This document shows positions 2,088 to 25,095 of a stretch of DNA of 64,000 nt, one piece after another. Made by a program: the position numbers and the translations under genes. The notes beneath the pieces are model-generated. The model did no database searches. It worked only from the letters and a program-made list of their open reading frames with translations, and was not told the origin of the DNA. Every line of letters begins with the position of its first letter. Position 1 is the first letter of the stretch. Source of the stretch: Rhizobium oryzihabitans (GTDB lineage: Bacteria; Pseudomonadota; Alphaproteobacteria; Rhizobiales; Rhizobiaceae); NCBI RefSeq assembly GCF_010669145.1, contig NZ_CP048635.1, forward strand, positions 1,303,501 to 1,367,500, read 5' to 3'.

Positions 2088-3296
2088 ATGCGCAAGAGTA
2101 TTCTTTTATCCACGGCCATGGTCCTAGCCGCGGGCACCGCCGCTTATGCCGCCGAAATTTCCGACGGCAAGGTCAAGATCGGCATCCTGAACGACCAGTC
2201 GGGCGTCTACGCCAATTTCGGCGGCAAATACTCTTATGAGGCCGCGAAGATGGCGGTCGAGGATTTCGGCGGCAAGGTGCTCAATGCGCCAGTGGAAGTG
2301 GTGACCGCCGACCACCAAAACAAGGCGGATGTCGCCTCCAACATCGCCCGGCAATGGTATGACACGGAACAGGTCGACTCGATCATGGAGTTGACCTCGT
2401 CGTCGGTGGGGCTGGCCGTGCAGGCGCTCTCCAAGGACAAGAAGAAGATCACCGTCAACACGGGCGCGGCAACGACGGAGCTGACGGGCAAGCAATGCAG
2501 CCCCTATGGTTTCCATTGGGCATACGACACCTATTCGCTCGCAGTCGGTACCGGCGGCGCGCTGGTGAAGCAGGGCGGCGACAGCTGGTTCTTCCTGACC
2601 GCCGACTACGCCTTCGGTTATTCGCTTGAAGAAAACACTGCCAATTTCGTCAAGGCCAATGGCGGCAAGGTGCTGGGCTCCGTGCGCCATCCGCTGGCGA
2701 CGACTGATTATTCCTCCTTCCTGTTGCAGGCGCAGTCATCAGGCGCGAAGGTCATCGGCCTTGCCAATGCCGGCCTCGACACCTCCAATGCCATCAAGCA
2801 GGCGGCCGAGTTCGGTATCGTCGCAGGCGGCCAGCGGCTCGCGGCTCTTCTCTTCACGCTTGCCGAAGTGCATGGCCTCGGCCTCGAGGCAGCCCAGGGC
2901 CTGACGCTGACGGAAGGCTTCTATTGGGACCGCGACGATGAATCGCGCAAATTCGGCGAACGGTTCAAGGAACGCACCGGCGCCATGCCGAACATGGTGC
3001 ACACAGGCACTTATTCCGCCGTCCTGCACTATCTGAAAGCCATCGAAAAGGCCGGGACGGATGATGCCGACGCCGTTGCCAAGGCCATGAAGGAAATGCC
3101 GGTCAACGACGTTTTCGCCAAGGACGGCCATGTGGCAGCGAACGGCCGTATGATCCACGACATGTATCTCATGGAGGTGAAGAAGCCGGATGAGAGCAAG
3201 CAGCCGTGGGACTATTACAAGGTGCTTGCCACGATCCCCGGCAAGGAAGCCTTCATGGACCCGGCAAAGAGCGGTTGCCCGCTGGTGACCCAATAA
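2088..3296 (+). CDS. ABC transporter substrate-binding protein, branched-chain amino acid type
   Basis: A 402-residue periplasmic binding protein. The N-terminus MRKSILLSTAMVLAAGTAAYAA is a clear signal peptide, and the mature part (KVKIGILNDQSGVYANFGG onward) matches the type I periplasmic ligand-binding fold of the LivK/amide-urea group (Peripla_BP_6). The start follows a GGGAGGAG ribosome-binding site. It is the first gene of an operon with two ATPases and two permeases. The downstream genes handle hydroxy acids and acetoacetate, so its ligand need not be an amino acid; a short hydroxy acid or alcohol is plausible (inference). Confidence 0.93.
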   Translation: MRKSILLSTAMVLAAGTAAYAAEISDGKVKIGILNDQSGVYANFGGKYSYEAAKMAVEDFGGKVLNAPVEVVTADHQNKADVASNIARQWYDTEQVDSIMELTSSSVGLAVQALSKDKKKITVNTGAATTELTGKQCSPYGFHWAYDTYSLAVGTGGALVKQGGDSWFFLTADYAFGYSLEENTANFVKANGGKVLGSVRHPLATTDYSSFLLQAQSSGAKVIGLANAGLDTSNAIKQAAEFGIVAGGQRLAALLFTLAEVHGLGLEAAQGLTLTEGFYWDRDDESRKFGERFKERTGAMPNMVHTGTYSAVLHYLKAIEKAGTDDADAVAKAMKEMPVNDVFAKDGHVAANGRMIHDMYLMEVKKPDESKQPWDYYKVLATIPGKEAFMDPAKSGCPLVTQ

Positions 3297-3325
3297 AAGA
3301 CTGATGCAATAAAGGGGAAAGTTTC

Positions 3326-4111
3326 ATGACGATCGCTCCCGCCCCTGCCGGGCAGGCCGAACCTCGCGTCGTTCTTTCGGCGCGTGGTCTCACCAAGACC
3401 TTCGGTGCATTCGCAGCTGTGAAAAACGTCGATCTCGACGTGCATCATGCCCGCGTGCATGCGCTGATCGGTCCGAACGGCGCCGGCAAGACTACGGTCT
3501 TCAACCTGTTGACCAAGTTTCTCCAGCCGACAGGCGGGGCGATCACCTTCATGGGAACGGACATAACAAGGACGCCACCAGACAAGGTGGCGCGTCTCGG
3601 CCTCGTCAGGTCGTTCCAGATATCGGCGGTGTTTCCGCATCTGACGGTTCTGGAAAATGTGCGGGTGGCGTTGCAGCGGCCCAACAGCCTTGCAACGCAG
3701 TTCTGGCTGCCGCTCTCTTCGCTCGACAGGCTGAACGCCCGTGCCGAGGAACTGATCGCCATGGTCGGTCTGACGCGGGAAAAACATGCGCTTGCGGCCG
3801 ATCTTTCTTACGGCCGCAAGCGGGTCCTCGAAATCGCCACCACGCTCGCGCTTGATCCAAAGGTTCTGCTGCTCGATGAACCGATGGCCGGCATGGGCGG
3901 TGAAGATGTCGCCCATGTTGCCGAACTCATCCGCGAGGTGGCCAAGACCCGCGCGGTGCTGATGGTCGAACATAATCTGAAAGTCGTGGCCGATATCTGC
4001 CACCACGTCACGGTCTTGCAACGCGGTGAAATTCTGGCGGAGGGCGACTATGCCGCCGTTTCCGCCGATCCGCGTGTGCGCACGGCCTATATGGGCACGG
4101 AGGAGGCTTGA
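3326..4111 (+). CDS. ABC transporter ATP-binding protein (LivG-like)
   Basis: A 261-residue ATPase with a Walker A motif GPNGAGKTT near residue 50, the region SYGRKRVLEIATTLA standing where the ABC signature lies, and Walker B VLLLDEPMAGM followed by the H-loop MVEHNL. LivG-type ATPases pair with a LivF-type partner, here the next gene, to drive import. It begins 30 bp after the binding-protein gene, and its stop is one base before the next start. The signature reads LSYGR rather than the common LSGGQ, as is usual in LivG proteins. Confidence 0.95.
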   Translation: MTIAPAPAGQAEPRVVLSARGLTKTFGAFAAVKNVDLDVHHARVHALIGPNGAGKTTVFNLLTKFLQPTGGAITFMGTDITRTPPDKVARLGLVRSFQISAVFPHLTVLENVRVALQRPNSLATQFWLPLSSLDRLNARAEELIAMVGLTREKHALAADLSYGRKRVLEIATTLALDPKVLLLDEPMAGMGGEDVAHVAELIREVAKTRAVLMVEHNLKVVADICHHVTVLQRGEILAEGDYAAVSADPRVRTAYMGTEEA

Positions 4112-4112
4112 T

Positions 4113-4814
4113 ATGGCGGCAATGCTCGAAGTCTCCAACCTGAAATCCTGGTACGGCGAAAGCCAGGCGCTGCACGGCGTCGATCTGAACGTCGGCGAAG
4201 GCGAAACCATCACCATTCTCGGCCGCAACGGCGTGGGCAAAACCACGACGCTGCGCACCATCATGGGCATCATCCGCAACCGCAAGGGCGTGATCAAGCT
4301 CGGTGGCAAGGATCTGATGCCGGTGCCGCTGCATCGCACGGCAAAATACGGCATCGGTTTCGTGCCGGAAGAGCGCGGCATCTTCGCGACGCTGAGCGTC
4401 GAGGAGAACCTGAAGCTGCCGCCCGTCGTCGCATCCGGCGGCATGACGCTCGATGAAATCTACGAGCTGTTTCCTAATCTCTACGAGCGTCGGACAAGTC
4501 CAGGCACCAAGCTCTCCGGCGGCGAGCAGCAGATGCTGGCCATGGCGCGCATCCTGCGCACCGGGGTCAAGGTTCTCCTGCTCGATGAGCCGACCGAGGG
4601 GCTTGCACCTGTTATCGTGCAGCGCATCGGCGAAGTGCTGAAGACCTTGAAAAGCCGGGGCATGACCGTTGTTCTGGTCGAGCAGAATTTCCGCTTCGCC
4701 AGCCGCATCGCGGACCGTTTCTACCTGATGGATCATGGCCAGATGGTCAGCAATTTTCCGGTGAGCGAGCTTTCCGACCGCATGGGCGAACTCAATAAAG
4801 TGCTGGGGGTTTAA
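4113..4814 (+). CDS. ABC transporter ATP-binding protein (LivF-like)
   Basis: A 233-residue ATPase. I chose the ATG at 4113 (MAAMLEVSNLKSWYG), which follows the stop of the preceding ATPase gene by one base; a longer in-frame start at 4026 would lie inside that gene. Walker A GRNGVGKTT, signature LSGGEQQM and Walker B VLLLDEPTEGL are all present, and the short C-terminus is typical of LivF. It forms the second nucleotide-binding subunit of the importer. Confidence 0.95.
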   Translation: MAAMLEVSNLKSWYGESQALHGVDLNVGEGETITILGRNGVGKTTTLRTIMGIIRNRKGVIKLGGKDLMPVPLHRTAKYGIGFVPEERGIFATLSVEENLKLPPVVASGGMTLDEIYELFPNLYERRTSPGTKLSGGEQQMLAMARILRTGVKVLLLDEPTEGLAPVIVQRIGEVLKTLKSRGMTVVLVEQNFRFASRIADRFYLMDHGQMVSNFPVSELSDRMGELNKVLGV

Positions 4815-4816
4815 CG

Positions 4817-5704
4817 ATGACGATGCTCTTCGGCGTTCCAATTCAGGCCCTGCTCGGGCAATTGCTGATCGGCCTCATCAACGGGTCGTTTTATGCCCTG
4901 TTGTCGCTCGGCCTTGCCGTCATTTTCGGCCTGCTGCGTGTCATCAATTTTGCCCATGGCGCGCAATATATGCTCGGCGCTTTCGTCGCCTTTCTCGGAC
5001 TGCAATATTTCGGCATCAGCTTCTGGGTGGCGCTGGTTGTGACGCCGCTGGTCGTGGCGCTCCTTGGCGCGATCGTCGAACGCCTCATGCTATCCAGGCT
5101 TTATGATCTCGATCCGCTCTACGGGTTGCTCTTCACCTTCGGCTTGGCGCTGGTGGTTGAAGGCACGTTCCGCTGGCTTTATGGCGCTGCCGGCCAGCCC
5201 TATTCGGTTCCACCGCAGCTTGCCGGCGGCACCAATCTCGGCTTCATGTTCCTGCCGAATTACCGCGCTTTCGTCGTCGTCATCTCGCTGGTCGCCTGCC
5301 TTGCCACCTGGGCGCTGATCGAAAAGACGCGGCTTGGCTCCTATCTGCGCGCGGCGACGGAAAATCCGACGCTGGTACAGGCTTTCGGCATCAACGTGCC
5401 GGTGCTCCTGACGCTGACCTACGCGCTGGGTGCGGGCCTTGCCGGGTTCACCGGGGTTCTCGCCGCGCCGATCTATCAGGTCTCGCCGCTGATGGGCACC
5501 AACCTCATCATCGTCGTCTTCGCGGTTGTCGTGGTCGGCGGCATGGGTTCGATCATGGGCGCCATCGTGACCGGCTACATGCTCGGCATCGCCGAAGGCC
5601 TGACCAAGGTGTTCTACCCGGAGGCGTCCAACATCGTCATTTTCGTCATCATGGCCTTTGTGCTGCTCATCCGCCCCGCCGGACTTTTCGGAAAGGACGC
5701 CTGA
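4817..5704 (+). CDS. Branched-chain amino acid-type ABC permease (LivH-like)
   Basis: A 295-residue integral membrane protein with about eight hydrophobic segments. The N-terminal part (GLINGSFYALLSLGLAVIFG and INFAHGA) is a hallmark of LivH permeases, and the GGMGSIMGAIVTGYMLG loop toward the C-terminus matches the coupling region. The start lies 2 bp after the LivF stop and the next gene begins 1 bp after its own stop, so expression is probably coupled. Confidence 0.95.
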   Translation: MTMLFGVPIQALLGQLLIGLINGSFYALLSLGLAVIFGLLRVINFAHGAQYMLGAFVAFLGLQYFGISFWVALVVTPLVVALLGAIVERLMLSRLYDLDPLYGLLFTFGLALVVEGTFRWLYGAAGQPYSVPPQLAGGTNLGFMFLPNYRAFVVVISLVACLATWALIEKTRLGSYLRAATENPTLVQAFGINVPVLLTLTYALGAGLAGFTGVLAAPIYQVSPLMGTNLIIVVFAVVVVGGMGSIMGAIVTGYMLGIAEGLTKVFYPEASNIVIFVIMAFVLLIRPAGLFGKDA

Positions 5705-19212: not shown

Positions 19213-19773
19213 TCAGGCGGCGCGGCGTTCGTGGCGGCCTTCCTCGACCTCCTCGACGATTTTCGCAACGAAGGCATCGAGGTCTTCCGGGCTGCGGGAC
19301 GTGATGATGCCCTTGTCCGTCACCACCTTTTCGTCTTTCCAGTTGGCGCCGGCGTTTTTCAGGTCGGTCTTGATCGACCAATAGGACGTGGCGTTACGGC
19401 CGCGCAGGGCATCCGCTTCAACGAGAAGCCAGGGGGCGTGGCAAATCGCAGCCACGACCTTGCCGGACTTGACGAAATCGCGAATGACGCGCATCGCATC
19501 CTCGTCGTGGCGCAGGACATCCGGATTGATCTGGCCGCCTGGAAGAACCAGCGCATCGAAGTCATCCGATTTGACGCTCCCGGCGGAAAGATCGACGGCA
19601 ATGCTGTCGCCCCAGTCCTTTTTATCCCAGCTCCTGATCTCGCCTTCCTTGATTGAGGCGATCTTTACGTCCGCACCCTTGGCCTTCAACTGGTTATAGG
19701 GCACGCGCAGTTCGGAGCGCTCATAGCCGTCCGTTGCGAGAATGAGGATCTTTGCAGCGTTGATGGCAGTCAT
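19213..19773 (-). CDS. Type 1 glutamine amidotransferase-like protein (PfpI/DJ-1 family)
   Basis: A 186-residue PfpI-type protein. The nucleophile elbow AAICHAPW carries the conserved cysteine and the following His, and an upstream Glu lies in the SELRVPYNQL region. The length equals that of YhbO/PfpI proteins, which act as deglycases or proteases in stress defence. It follows the 73-residue gene by 18 bp, and both are probably driven by the EcfG promoter at 20171-20195. Confidence 0.9.
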   Translation of the reverse strand: MTAINAAKILILATDGYERSELRVPYNQLKAKGADVKIASIKEGEIRSWDKKDWGDSIAVDLSAGSVKSDDFDALVLPGGQINPDVLRHDEDAMRVIRDFVKSGKVVAAICHAPWLLVEADALRGRNATSYWSIKTDLKNAGANWKDEKVVTDKGIITSRSPEDLDAFVAKIVEEVEEGRHERRAA

Positions 19774-20303: not shown

Positions 20304-21134
20304 ATGGCAGCCAGACAGAGCGACGGCGAATACAGCGACAACAACGAAAACAAGGGTTTCTGGTCGATCGACTTCGACAATTCGCCCGTCATCGGCACGG
20401 CCATTCATGACGGTCATCGCATCCGCCCCGATATTGCCGATCTGATGGCGCTTTCCCCGGACGAACGCCTGCGGGAAGAAGATCCCTTTACCGGCGAAAT
20501 GATCGCGGGGATGACCAACCGCATCGTCGTCCATCATTCGCGTTTCGAAATCGATCTCAACCGTGCGGCCGACCAGGCAATCTACCTCAAGCCGGAGCAA
20601 TCCTGGGGACTGGAGGTCTGGAAACAGGAGCCGCCCGCGGCATCCATCCGCCAATCGCTCGATTTTCACGCCGACTATTACGCAATGCTTGAAACCGTTC
20701 TTTCAACGGTCGAACGGCGGCACGGTGCTTTCGTGGTACTGGACGTGCACAGCTATAATCATCGCCGGCAGGGTGCCGCCGCGCCGCCGACGGCCCAGGC
20801 GGAAGCGCCTGATATCAATATCGGCACCTTTTCCATGGACCGCAGCCGCTGGAGCGATGTCGTCAGCGCCGTTGGCCATCATTTTGCGTCAGCGACCATC
20901 GGCGGCCGCCGTCTCGATGTTCGCGAGAATGTGGCCTTTCAGGGCAAGGGAGAGCAGACACGGTTCATTCACGAGCGTTTTGCGCAGAACGGCTGTGCGA
21001 TTGCGGTGGAGTTCAAGAAATTCTTCATGGATGAATGGACCGGCAAACCGGACGTACGCGTGGTGTCGGATATTCGCGACACGATGGCCGCACTTCAGCC
21101 GGTTCTTGAAGAGTGCCTGAGGGCGCGGCGATGA
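20304..21134 (+). CDS. N-formylglutamate amidohydrolase family protein
   Basis: A 276-residue zinc-hydrolase-like protein of the N-formylglutamate amidohydrolase family. Motifs include TAIHDGHRI at the N-terminus, TNRIVVHHSRFEIDLNR, the catalytic-type VVLDVHSYNHRR and the C-terminal EFKKFFMDEWTG. It lies in a tight operon, its stop overlapping the next start by 4 bp (ATGA), with a QEGLA-motif protein and an ATP-grasp ligase. This context is not histidine degradation (no hut genes), so a role in removing or processing an amide-linked amino acid is more likely (inference). Confidence 0.88.
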   Translation: MAARQSDGEYSDNNENKGFWSIDFDNSPVIGTAIHDGHRIRPDIADLMALSPDERLREEDPFTGEMIAGMTNRIVVHHSRFEIDLNRAADQAIYLKPEQSWGLEVWKQEPPAASIRQSLDFHADYYAMLETVLSTVERRHGAFVVLDVHSYNHRRQGAAAPPTAQAEAPDINIGTFSMDRSRWSDVVSAVGHHFASATIGGRRLDVRENVAFQGKGEQTRFIHERFAQNGCAIAVEFKKFFMDEWTGKPDVRVVSDIRDTMAALQPVLEECLRARR

Positions 21135-23007
21135 ACCTCTCTTCCGCACGCAGCGAACCGTCACCGGTCGCCGATCTGGTAGACGATGTTGTCTCCTGTC
21201 TGGAAGCTGGCAAGGCGGTCCGTCGCGATGTCGGAAAGACTGGCAGGTTGCATATCGACCGGCCGTTGCCGTTTCTCTGCCTGCATCTGACTGGCGGTAC
21301 GAAGGATCTCGCGGCCCGCGACATCGCGTCTGCACATGCGTCCTATCTGATCGCATCGACCATTCAGGAGGCTGCGCCGCTGATTGAGGCCGTGGGTGCT
21401 GCCATGCGGCAACGCTTCGGCGCCTTCATGGTTCTCGATATCGGCGAACTGGAACATGACATTCTGCTCGCCGACGATTCGCCCTTTCTGCCGCATTATG
21501 AGGTTTCCGTCTCGGCGACGGACGAGCCCGAAACACAGAACGCCCGCCGTGTTTTCATCAAGGCGGTTTGCGACGCCGAAGTGCGGTTTCGCACGCCGCG
21601 CATCACCAGGCCAGAAGCGGCGGCGGATCCGATCCTTAGATTTCAGAATGCCGGCCTCGATTTCCCCTGCATCAGTGTCCGTTTTGCGCCGATCTACCGG
21701 CAACCGGAATCCGGCGCGGATTATCCCGGCCTGCGCGAGACGATGATTGCCGATATTTTCGATGCCGGTTTGCAGGCCTTCTCGTCATTCGCGGCCGGTA
21801 AAGATGCCCTCAAGGTCACCAGTCACCGGGCGCTCGGCCGCAAGGCTTTCGTCGATGCCGTCAGGCGCGCCGATCGCTCGATCGACGACATCGTCTCTTC
21901 CTTCGATTTTCTTCTGTCCGTCACGCCGATCAATGCCCGCCGGGCATTCGAGGAGTTTCGTGACGGCAGCTTTCAATATGCGCCGCGCCTGCTTTACCGG
22001 CCCTCGGCGTTGATGTCGAGGAACAGAAACGCAAGCTGTATTCCGTGGTTTTCGACCATCTGGAAGACCCGGTTCTTTATCATCTTTACCGGGAAAAGCA
22101 GCAGGAGATCGATCTGCAACTGACGATGCTCGCCAATCTGCATCGCCGCACGTTCACAGATTTCTCCCGCGCCCTTTACGGCGCCGTTGAACCCGCTCTT
22201 TTGACACTGGCGCTCAGCGTGCTTGCGGATTGCCCGCGCAAGGATGAGAGCGGCGAAATCGCCATGGTTGATTGTTATGCGGTCGCCAGAAAGTCGCGCG
22301 AGATGGTCGAGACCTATCTGGCGGAGGAGCCGGAATTCAAGGCCCGTGTCGAAATCAGGGACGACCTGCCACCCGGCCTGATGGTGACGGGCGAAAAACT
22401 GCTGATCTCGCGCCACACTGTCATGGAACAGCGCCGGGTCGAGGCGCTTCTCTCGCACGAGATAGGCGTGCATCTGCTCACCTATTTCAACGGTTCGTCT
22501 CAGGGCCTCAGGCTCTTTCGCACCGGACTTTCCGGTTACGAGGGCGTGCAGGAGGGGTTGGCGGTGCTGGCGGAGCACCTGGCCGGTGGCATGACACGCG
22601 AGCGCCTGCGGCTGATCGCCGGCCGCGTCGTCGGCTGCGCCGCCATGCTGGACGGCGCGACTTTCGTTGAGACGTTCCGGATCATGACCCGGGATCACGG
22701 TTTCGACGAGGCCGGCGCCTTCAACATGGTGCTGCGCATCTATCGGGGCGGTGGTCTTTCGAAGGACGCAATTTATCTGCGCGGACTGGCAGAGGTGCTG
22801 GAACACCTGCGCAAGGGCGGCGCGCTCGATCCATTCTGGATGGGCAAGATCGCCGCCGCCCATTTCCCGGTGATGCAGGAGCTTGCCTTGCGCGGCCTCC
22901 TGCGTCCGCCGGGCGTACGCCCCGCTTTTCTGCTGCCAGCCAAGGCCAATGAGCGGCTGGAAAAGATCCGGGCGGGATTATCCATCGCCGAACTGGCGAC
23001 ACTATAA
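21131..23007 (+). pseudogene. Frameshifted QEGLA-motif protein (flavohemoglobin expression-modulating, DUF1704 metallopeptidase-like)
   Basis: One gene split by a one-base loss at the C-run 22001-22003: codons for residues 1-290 are in one frame, ending YAPRLLYRP, and the protein continues one base back as LGVDVEEQKRKLYSVV. Restoring one C gives 625 residues, the family's usual size. The C-terminal half has the HEIGVH zinc motif (22456-22473) and the QEGLA motif (22549-22563) that define the family. DUF1704 also contains human MATCAP, a tubulin tyrosine carboxypeptidase. It overlaps the upstream gene and precedes an ATP-grasp gene by 18 bp. The shift may be a sequencing error. Confidence 0.85.
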
Positions 23008-23025
23008 CATGACAGGAGGGGCTAC

Positions 23026-24072
23026 ATGCGTATCGCATTTTTCGTCAATTCCATCGAAACCGAGGGACCGAATTTCGCTACCGGGCTTATGGCCATGGCT
23101 GCGCTCAATCGCGGCCATGAGGTGGTCTATCTGACGCCTGGTGATTTCACCTTGCGGTCGGACGACAGTCTGACCATTCATGCCTCTGTGCTGCCGAAGG
23201 CAAAGTACAAGAAGGCCGACGCTTTCCATGCCGCCCTTCAGGACAAGTCGCTGGAGCGGCGCACGATGGATGTGGAGGAAATCGACGCGCTGATGCTGCG
23301 CAACGACCCTTCGCTTGACCAGACGACCAGGCCTTGGGCGGTGCATGCCGGCATTCTGTTCGGCCGGCTTGCCGAACAACGGGGCGTCGTGGTGCTGAAC
23401 GATCCCGAAGGTTTGGCGCTTGCGCAGAACAAACTCTATTTCCAGAGCTTCCCCGAAATCGTCCGTCCGACCACGATCATCTCGCGCAATGTCGATGAAA
23501 TCCGCGCATTCGCCGATGCTCATCCCAAGGGTGTCATCGTCAAGCCGCTTCAGGGTTCAGGCGGCAAGAATGTCTTCAAGATCGGCTCCAGCAAGGAGGC
23601 CAATCTCAACCAGATTTTCGAGGCCGTCAGTCTCGAGGGCTATCTGATAGCGCAGGCTTATCTGCCGGCCGCCAAGGATGGCGATGTCCGTTTCTTCATG
23701 ATGAATGGCAGGCCGCTGATGCGCGACGGAAAATATGCCGCACTTCGCCGCGTGCCGGCAAAAGGCGATCTGCGCTCCAACATTCACGCCAAAGGCACCG
23801 CCGAGGCGGTGAAAGTGACCGACGAGATCGTGGCGCTTGCCGAAATGATGCGGCCGAAGCTGGTGGAAGACGGCATGTTTCTGGTCGGGCTCGATATCGT
23901 CGGCGACAAGATACTGGAGGTGAACGTGTTTTCGCCGGGCGGTCTCTCTAACATCCTCGAACTCACCGATGTCGATTTCAGCGATACGATCATAGAGTCT
24001 ATAGAGACAAAAGTTGCCATGCAGAGCGCGTCCGGCGGCATGCTCTCCAATCGCCTGCTGGCGACGCTTTGA
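23026..24072 (+). CDS. GshB-like ATP-grasp ligase
   Basis: A 348-residue protein related to glutathione synthase and RimK. It has the N-terminal substrate domain (MRIAFFVNSIETEGPNF), the ATP-binding lysine motif VIVKPLQGSGGKNVFKI near residue 175 and the metal-binding DIVGDKILEVNVFSPGG with Glu and Asn near residue 300. Enzymes of this fold form amide bonds using ATP through an acyl-phosphate. True glutathione synthase is normally encoded elsewhere and near different genes. Here it is third in an operon with two predicted amide hydrolases, so another acceptor is likely (inference). It ends 1 bp before the convergent epimerase. Confidence 0.88.
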   Translation: MRIAFFVNSIETEGPNFATGLMAMAALNRGHEVVYLTPGDFTLRSDDSLTIHASVLPKAKYKKADAFHAALQDKSLERRTMDVEEIDALMLRNDPSLDQTTRPWAVHAGILFGRLAEQRGVVVLNDPEGLALAQNKLYFQSFPEIVRPTTIISRNVDEIRAFADAHPKGVIVKPLQGSGGKNVFKIGSSKEANLNQIFEAVSLEGYLIAQAYLPAAKDGDVRFFMMNGRPLMRDGKYAALRRVPAKGDLRSNIHAKGTAEAVKVTDEIVALAEMMRPKLVEDGMFLVGLDIVGDKILEVNVFSPGGLSNILELTDVDFSDTIIESIETKVAMQSASGGMLSNRLLATL

Positions 24073-24073
24073 G

Positions 24074-25095
24074 TCATTCGCGCAGTTCCGTCGAGCGCAT
24101 CTCACGATACCAGGCGACGAGGGCCTTGATGCCCTCTTCGACCGGGGTTTGCGGCACGTAGCCGGTCAGGGCTCTTAAAAGATCGGGCGAGGCGAAGGTG
24201 CGGGGAACGTCTCCCTGCTGCATGGGCAGCATGTTGCGGATAGCCGGCCTGCCCACCGCTTTTTCGACCGTTTCGACAAAGTGCATCAGTTCCACCGGCT
24301 GGCCGCCGCCAATATTGACGATACGGAAGGGGGCATGGTGCGACAGCGTGTCGGTCACGCCTTCCTGCGTCACCCGGTTTTCCTCGGACGGGACGATCTC
24401 ACTCAGCCGGACGATGCCCTCCACCAGATCGTCAATATAGGTGAAGTCGCGGCTCATATTGCCTTCGCCGTAAATATCGATCGGCTGGCCGTTCGATATG
24501 GCATCGACGAATTTGATCGGAGCCATGTCCGGCCGTCCCAGGGTCCGTAGACGGTGAAGAAGCGGAAGGCCGTGGTGGGCAATTTGTGGAGATGGGCATA
24601 GCTATGCGCCATCAGTTCCATCGATTTTTTGGTGGCCGCATAAAGCGTCATCGGCTCATCGGCCTTGTCGCTTTCCGCAAAGGGTATTTTTTCGTTGGCG
24701 CCGTAGATGGAGGAGGTCGAGGCCAGCATCAGGTGTTTGACACGCAGGTTCTTGGCAAGCTCCAGCATGTTCCACGATCCGATGAGATTGGAATCGATAT
24801 AGGCGCGTGGATTTTCAAGGCTGTAGCGGACACCCGCCTGTGCTGCGAGGTGAATGATGATTTCCGGTTCGGCGGCCTCCGCTGCCCGCTTCAGGGCGTC
24901 CACGTCTTCCAGCATGCCGATCTCGGCCCTGAAACCATTGGAGCGGGAAAGGATGGCGTGGCGTTTTTCTTTCAGGCTGACGTCGTAATATTTCGTCATG
25001 CCGTCAAAACCGGTCACGAAGTGGCCGGCATCCAGAAGCCGCTTGGCAACGTAAAAACCGATGAAGCCCGCGGTGCCCGTAACCAGATAACGCAT
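24074..25095 (-). pseudogene. Frameshifted NAD-dependent epimerase (UDP-glucuronate 4-epimerase-like)
   Basis: Residues 1-about 192 ([20 protein letters not shown] to [10 protein letters not shown]) and the rest ([17 protein letters not shown] onward) are in different frames, joined at a G-run (plus-strand CCC at 24537-24539) that is one base short. Restored, it is 340 residues, the length of LpsL-type UDP-glucuronate 4-epimerases. The GxxGxxG motif and the YAATK catalytic motif are present. It lies 87 bp downstream of UDP-glucose dehydrogenase, so the two would make UDP-galacturonate for surface polysaccharide. The frameshift is probably a sequencing artefact. Confidence 0.85.

Follow-up and report, generated by a model that had tools for sequence, protein, structure and literature searches.

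Three adjacent genes that lie within a 64,000-nucleotide stretch of the Rhizobium oryzihabitans genome (hereafter ‘the window’, G000:C4:1303501-1367500 of a 5.86 Mb genome) encode enzymes that form a conserved unit: a metallohydrolase with the fold of N-formylglutamate amidohydrolase (‘FGase’), a zincin of the MATCAP family that carries the name ‘QEGLA’, and an ATP-grasp ligase that is related to glutathione synthase (GshB) and distinct from the housekeeping copy of that enzyme. The FGase is encoded either by a gene of its own (in Alphaproteobacteria, Xanthomonadales and others) or as a fusion to the MATCAP domain (in marine Gammaproteobacteria), and where it is separate the QEGLA protein carries a further FGase-fold domain without the catalytic set. 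We propose, as a tentative reading that falls just short of an even call, that the operon is a reversible C-terminal amino-acid modification module. A preliminary description of the window, made from its letters alone, had already placed three packed genes here with a 4-bp overlap and an 18-bp gap, and its coordinates were confirmed (overlap of the FGase and QEGLA genes at 21131-21134; gap between the QEGLA and ligase genes at 23008-23025).

Identity of the three proteins

The first protein, correctly described beforehand as N-formylglutamate-amidohydrolase-like, scores 97.1 bits against PF05013 (cut-off 28.9), and its fold and its DxH, DLNR and E motifs likewise place it in that family. The putative catalytic residues (H35, E58-E59-D60, R80, D84-L85-N86-R87, D147-x-H149 and E236) are all kept, and none of them varies among the 19 free FGase sequences, the window’s protein included; the Asn-Arg pair of the DLNR motif is invariant across free and fused FGases together (58/58 sequences). 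We presume that this pair grips the free alpha-carboxylate of a released amino acid, as in M14 carboxypeptidases and aspartoacylase, and we take His149 of the DxHxYN motif to be a zinc ligand, on the strength of family knowledge and of the motif. The substrates of functionally characterized FGases and aspartoacylases are small N-acyl amino acids. The FGase profile matched no PDB sequence at E 0.001; a fold search afterwards, with a predicted model of high confidence (predicted local distance difference test, pLDDT, 90.6), found 2q7s as the best match (template modelling, TM, score 0.73). Identity with HutG of the hut pathway was rejected: the protein is like HutG in fold and motifs, but its 27.8 bits against the TIGR02017 equivalog model lie far under the cut-off of 278.75. 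Four further genes of the FGase family are present in the genome (G000:C4:1009576, C4:1066210, C1:3032590 and C4:863528).

The second protein had been described as a QEGLA protein with an HExxxH motif, and its assignment to the DUF1704/MATCAP family stands, being borne out by the domain score of its C-terminal part (PF08014, E 2.2e-87), the fold, the HExxxH motif and a downstream Glu; that part alone also scores 392.2 bits against TIGR02421 (cut-off 338.65). What the description had missed is that the gene does not form one open frame in the window, and that the approximately 260 N-terminal residues, which fall outside the family models, make up a second domain. This domain has the FGase fold and lacks the catalytic residues: across 27 non-fused sequences the DLNR segment is gapped in every one (in an alignment read by eye), His occupies the zinc column in two and Glu the Glu column in one. 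The extra half of QEGLA is, on this alignment, a dead copy of the FGase fold.

MATCAP-family carboxypeptidases with known activity cut C-terminal residues off tubulin tails (PMC10499314). For the flavohemoglobin role contained in the QEGLA name, a literature search turned up one paper that uses the name, as an annotation only. A second class of MATCAP proteins (L077-L090 and L189-L200), with neither an FGase domain nor a nearby operon-type ligase, is common in the Gammaproteobacteria sampled, and its best members outscore the operon type on PF08014.

The third protein is a GshB/RimK-type ATP-grasp ligase, as had been proposed (PF02955, E 4.2e-55), and matches the PRK12458 subfamily model NF009110 over its full length with 488.4 bits (cut-off 408). 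It falls under the cut-offs of both the canonical glutathione synthase model (TIGR01380, 199 versus 299.05 bits) and the RimK family model (TIGR00768, 77.8 versus 143.4 bits). The preliminary description would have been undone had this ligase proved to be the strain’s ordinary glutathione synthase; that enzyme is encoded elsewhere, at G000:C1:1886328-1887251 (403.4 bits on TIGR01380). A tree was built from 30 operon ligases and 33 sequences that were taken to be GshB (matches under the PRK12458 cut-off); a single branch with support 100/95 parts the two sets, and the ligase of locus L005 shares 27.5% identity with the genome’s own GshB. The housekeeping identity was therefore rejected by the scores, the separate GshB gene and the tree. 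GshB and the operon ligase belong to the same superfamily and have 35 conserved positions in common, but the latter stands on its own side of the tree, scores below the equivalog level and lies beside MATCAP wherever its context is visible. Within the window’s genus it is nearly universal (38 of 39 genomes).

Conserved neighbourhoods, fusion and coupled loss

From 64 pattern matches in genome contigs, 44 loci encoding close relatives of the window’s MATCAP part were collected. The ligase is adjacent in 44/44 and the FGase in 43/44, the one miss being a locus cut by a contig start (L046, which was counted for the ligase), and the order FGase-QEGLA-ligase is kept across Agrobacterium, Devosia, Sphingomonas and Lysobacter. 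Because this set was chosen by sequence, sampled genomes were examined as well: among 299 Pseudomonadota genomes, MATCAP is found in 29 and an over-cut-off ligase in eight (as ten copies), and the ligase adjoins a MATCAP gene in nine of those ten copies, the tenth starting at base 48 of its contig. Co-occurrence across genomes, which had been suggested beforehand as a check, thus goes far beyond chance, and a chance neighbourhood was rejected by the co-occurrence, the shared order and the existence of fused hydrolases. Of the further non-fused copies, L091, L094, L166 and L167 have an FGase gene nearby, and L168, L169 and L170 are truncated by the ends of their contigs. One genome (G113) holds three ligase-QEGLA pairs (L095, L166 and L168), with an FGase near L166 and with L168 cut by the contig start.

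A comparison of 27 loci showed no fourth gene that keeps a constant position next to the operon; a broad ABC-ATPase cluster is present somewhere in 12 of those stretches. In 15 stretches around solo MATCAP genes, taken with wider flanks, the sole ligase-like neighbour is a RimK gene in L082, where it and the MATCAP gene are divergent (3046-3948 and 4265-5614). Within Hyphomicrobiales QEGLA is patchy, with matches in 3 of 297 genomes at E 1e-20, the window’s genome included; of the other two, G427 has the alphaproteobacterial layout and G371 (L164) has the marine ligase together with a fused FGase-MATCAP gene, which suggests that the marine-type operon may have been acquired there by horizontal transfer.

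In a search with a fused Vibrio protein as query (619 proteins), 118 of the matches listed (120) carry both PF05013 and PF08014, and the genera with fusions among the matches listed include Vibrio, Shewanella, Ferrimonas, Thalassotalea and Pseudoalteromonas. Across the order of Vibrio (394 genomes), 22 fused loci were examined and the ligase lies upstream in all 22. Within Vibrio itself the ligase is present in 18 of 227 genomes (E 1e-100), adjoined by the fusion in 18/18; of 19 Vibrio genomes tested, 17 have a GshB-level match but not the operon ligase, and the eight genomes that carry the fusion without the ligase have a GshB-level match only.

These ligase-less fusions are informative as to which enzymes may oppose each other. 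In 39 fused proteins, the DxHxYN position that corresponds to His149 of the window’s protein is His in 31/31 with a ligase and Tyr in 8/8 without one (a count that excludes L188, a broken fused gene that also lacks the ligase and has Tyr at this position). The residue equivalent to D60 is Ala in the same eight proteins, and Ser in two that have the ligase; HExxxH and the following QEG or EEG are retained in 39/39. An FGase that acts on the product of the ligase, beside a MATCAP with some further role, would predict this pattern, and the coupled loss of the ligase and of the putative FGase zinc ligand supports a candidate make/unmake pair. The add-and-remove cycle put forward in the preliminary description gains backing to that extent; the tagging of a protein is a step that we infer. 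Operon remnants follow the DUF413 gene (see below) in two Vibrio genomes (G641 and G684), as ligase and fusion fragments in L238 and a ligase fragment in L239.

A proposed cycle and its alternatives

Ligases of the GshB and RimK types use ATP to activate a carboxylate and join it to an amine. By analogy, a peptide or protein tail with a free carboxyl end would receive an amino acid from the operon ligase and lose it again to the FGase. MATCAP would act on that carrier too, trimming its C-terminal residue, and the dead FGase domain would dock either the carrier or the FGase; the reactions of all three enzymes, and the protein-tagging cycle that they would make up, are inferred. The coupled loss in Vibrio suggests that a cell would need the FGase chiefly as long as it has the ligase; MATCAP would have a job of its own. 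Support comes also from L093 (8161-11110, minus strand), where a QEGLA gene overlaps a gene for an aspartoacylase/AstE-type hydrolase (PF24827, E 1.2e-36) in place of the FGase; one N-acyl amino-acid hydrolase may possibly have been exchanged there for another beside MATCAP.

Low osmolarity may be linked to the deployment of such a cycle. At 1% versus 3% NaCl, A0J47_RS17020 of Photobacterium damselae (named glutathione synthase GshB) is up 38.4-fold and A0J47_RS17025 (QEGLA) 27.5-fold (PMC10308900). Their consecutive locus tags suggest that the two genes are adjacent, and RS17020 is presumed to be an operon-type ligase. In Vibrio vulnificus, VV2_1203 (COG3930) and VV2_1204 (glutathione synthetase) are listed together as clade-specific genes (PMC3091676). 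These observations come from species other than Agrobacterium, the genus name borne by most of the loci that have the nearest relatives of the window’s MATCAP part (94-98% identical protein).

Several observations weigh against the proposed cycle. The operon ligases split into two deep groups (marine and other), with a warning of long branches from the tree program, and because the ligase retains the majority of the positions that are conserved in GshB (35 shared and two swapped, at 90%), it may act on a glutathione-like small substrate. Comparison of the QEGLA N-terminal domain with the FGase profile by hhalign gives moderate similarity at best. No over-cut-off ligase is found in 22 of the 29 MATCAP genomes of the Pseudomonadota sample, nor at the locus in 8 of the 17 intact loci with the fusion in Vibrio; the window-type QEGLA copy in L093 (G093 C24) has no ligase match in 17.5 kb, and L095 has a ligase and QEGLA with no FGase found in approximately 2.7 kb of upstream sequence. 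Furthermore, the eight ligase-less fused proteins form one clade (support 100/100) and hence record one event. Because MATCAP without a ligase is common, the Vibrio fusions and L093 included, the full cycle is not obligatory.

The strongest competing explanation, and a possible one that deserves to be taken seriously, is a small-molecule pathway: the product of the ligase would be a short peptide or an amide of an amino acid, serving as an osmolyte, a redox compound or a storage compound, and the hydrolases would degrade or recycle it. The nearest solved relative of the ligase is the glutathione synthase 1gsa (E 6.5e-58), the shared conserved positions point the same way, and the small substrates of known FGases and aspartoacylases, together with the L093 neighbour, would fit, as would the dependence of expression on salt in Photobacterium (PMC10308900). 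On the other hand, MATCAP relatives with known activity target protein tails (PMC10499314), the 27 compared loci hold no extra gene at a fixed place, and the retention of a dead FGase domain on MATCAP hints at docking.

It is also conceivable, although we regard it as doubtful, that the module is dead in this strain, the QEGLA frameshift being a real mutation in a decaying operon. The first approximately 290 codons of the window’s QEGLA gene and its MATCAP part lie in different frames (Table 1), and four out of four relatives aligned by blastn place a net one-base shift near position 22,003. The gene is one uninterrupted frame in 43/43 relatives where both parts are covered, and both parts share one frame over the covered stretch in 29/29 loci of the same genus; the remnants in L238 and L239 show that such operons do break up elsewhere. 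However, the same four alignments reveal a second net one-base shift near position 24,537, inside the neighbouring epimerase gene. Because of this second shift within 2.5 kb, assembly error and true decay are indistinguishable here, and the assembly may contain indel errors; moreover, the FGase and ligase frames are open and the ligase is kept throughout nearly all of the genus. Promoter-like and terminator-like sites between positions 19700 and 24300 show no excess over shuffled sequence.

Table 1. Coordinates of the operon and of the adjacent epimerase gene, in positions of the window
Feature	Position	Strand	Details
FGase-like amidohydrolase gene	20304-21134	+	276 aa; PF05013; M14/FGase fold
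QEGLA/MATCAP coding sequence	21131-23007	+	PF08014 and TIGR02421 in C-terminal part; split frame
QEGLA gene part 1 (dead FGase/M14-fold domain)	21131 to ~22000 (approximate end)	+	Other frame than the rest
QEGLA gene part 2 (MATCAP/DUF1704 zincin, HExxxH and QEG)	~22000 (approximate start) to 23007	+	
PRK12458-type ATP-grasp amide ligase gene	23026-24072	+	348 aa; annotated elsewhere as glutathione synthetase
NAD-dependent epimerase gene	24074-25095	-	Split into two frames relative to four relatives

A second glutathione synthase, accompanied by enzymes for the turnover of glutathione or gamma-glutamyl peptides, would accord with the database names (glutathione synthetase) and with GshB as the nearest solved structure. 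We consider it unlikely, given the housekeeping GshB, the ligase’s score under the equivalog cut-off, the branch that sets the operon ligases apart, the 27.5% identity between the L005 ligase and the genome’s own GshB, and the 17 of 19 Vibrio genomes that manage with a GshB-level match and no operon ligase.

In Vibrio and some relatives, a MaoP-like DUF413 gene lies upstream of the ligase (17 of 18 ligase-bearing Vibrio loci and 10 of the 22 fused loci of the order), and its Vibrio products have an acidic C-terminal tail; the mean tail composition was not used, since the listing includes many short spurious frames. Of 12 gamma-type contexts, 7 have a LysR gene of one cluster, which we take to be HdfR-like, close to the operon. 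In Escherichia coli, hdfR and maoP (yifE) are divergent neighbours (PMC5023128), so that the link between DUF413 and the operon may be one of position. In that species gltBD, the genes for glutamate synthase, are direct targets of induction by HdfR (PMC2984483), a possible pointer to glutamate. That the DUF413 protein is the substrate, with a tail acidic like that of tubulin, is the least probable of the alternatives: the presence of a further copy, away from the operon, in G907, G1061 and G969 might speak for it along with the neighbourhood and the tails, but copies away from the operon are acidic too, the operon-side copies of L248 and L252 are not, the operon may simply have joined an existing hdfR/maoP locus, 12 of the 22 fused loci have no DUF413 next door, and a search of the window’s genome found none.

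Known systems and the meaning of the operon

Returning to the reversible C-terminal modification that we favour, one of its closest known parallels is the RimK/RimB pair, in which the ATP-grasp enzyme RimK adds C-terminal Glu to ribosomal protein S6 (polyglutamylation) and the peptidase RimB, encoded by the adjacent gene, removes it (PMC12239564). The likeness seen here is one of genomic coupling: RimB is an aspartic peptidase, whereas the operon has two metallohydrolases of other folds, and its ligase, unlike RimK, is nearer to GshB. The rlo operon of Pseudomonas aeruginosa (RloA/RloB/RloC) likewise combines ATP-grasp and peptidase genes, with genetic antagonism between ligase and peptidase and an effect on hypo-osmotic tolerance (PMC12239564), but a retropepsin-like secreted protease and an inactive transglutaminase membrane protein stand there in place of MATCAP and the FGase. 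In contrast to the enzymes of tubulin tails (TTL/TTLL ligases, MATCAP/TMCP and CCP carboxypeptidases), the operon is bacterial, forms a single unit and has no known tubulin target, and its FGase, unlike CCP, is nearer to N-formylglutamate amidohydrolase. A far-reaching version of our proposal would make the operon a bacterial equivalent of the tubulin tail code: turned on at low osmolarity, the three enzymes would write amino acids onto an acidic C-terminal tail of a cellular protein (in vibrios perhaps MaoP, a chromosome-organising protein) and erase them again, and the eukaryotic detyrosinase would descend from such a set. This version strikes us as improbable.

Pairs of ligase and peptidase genes were reportedly surveyed by Iyer et al. 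in 2009 (Mol Biosyst 5:1636) among operons of ATP-grasp amidoligases, and that survey may already mention the present pairing. A literature search, beyond whose reach this likeliest source lay, found no paper describing the operon as a system. Antagonism between ligase and peptidase is thus already known, and the trio and its arrangement are apparently not, in the literature searched.

The operon gives a testable function to a family whose name comes solely from an unverified effect on flavohemoglobin. It also puts in doubt the name glutathione synthetase for the ligase, which has influenced how a transcriptome was interpreted (PMC10308900). The coupled loss in Vibrio suggests which two of the enzymes oppose each other. 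Finally, the bacterial relatives of the human tubulin detyrosinase are placed in a system with its own ligase, and because they sit there, the role of MATCAP without tubulin becomes an experimental question.

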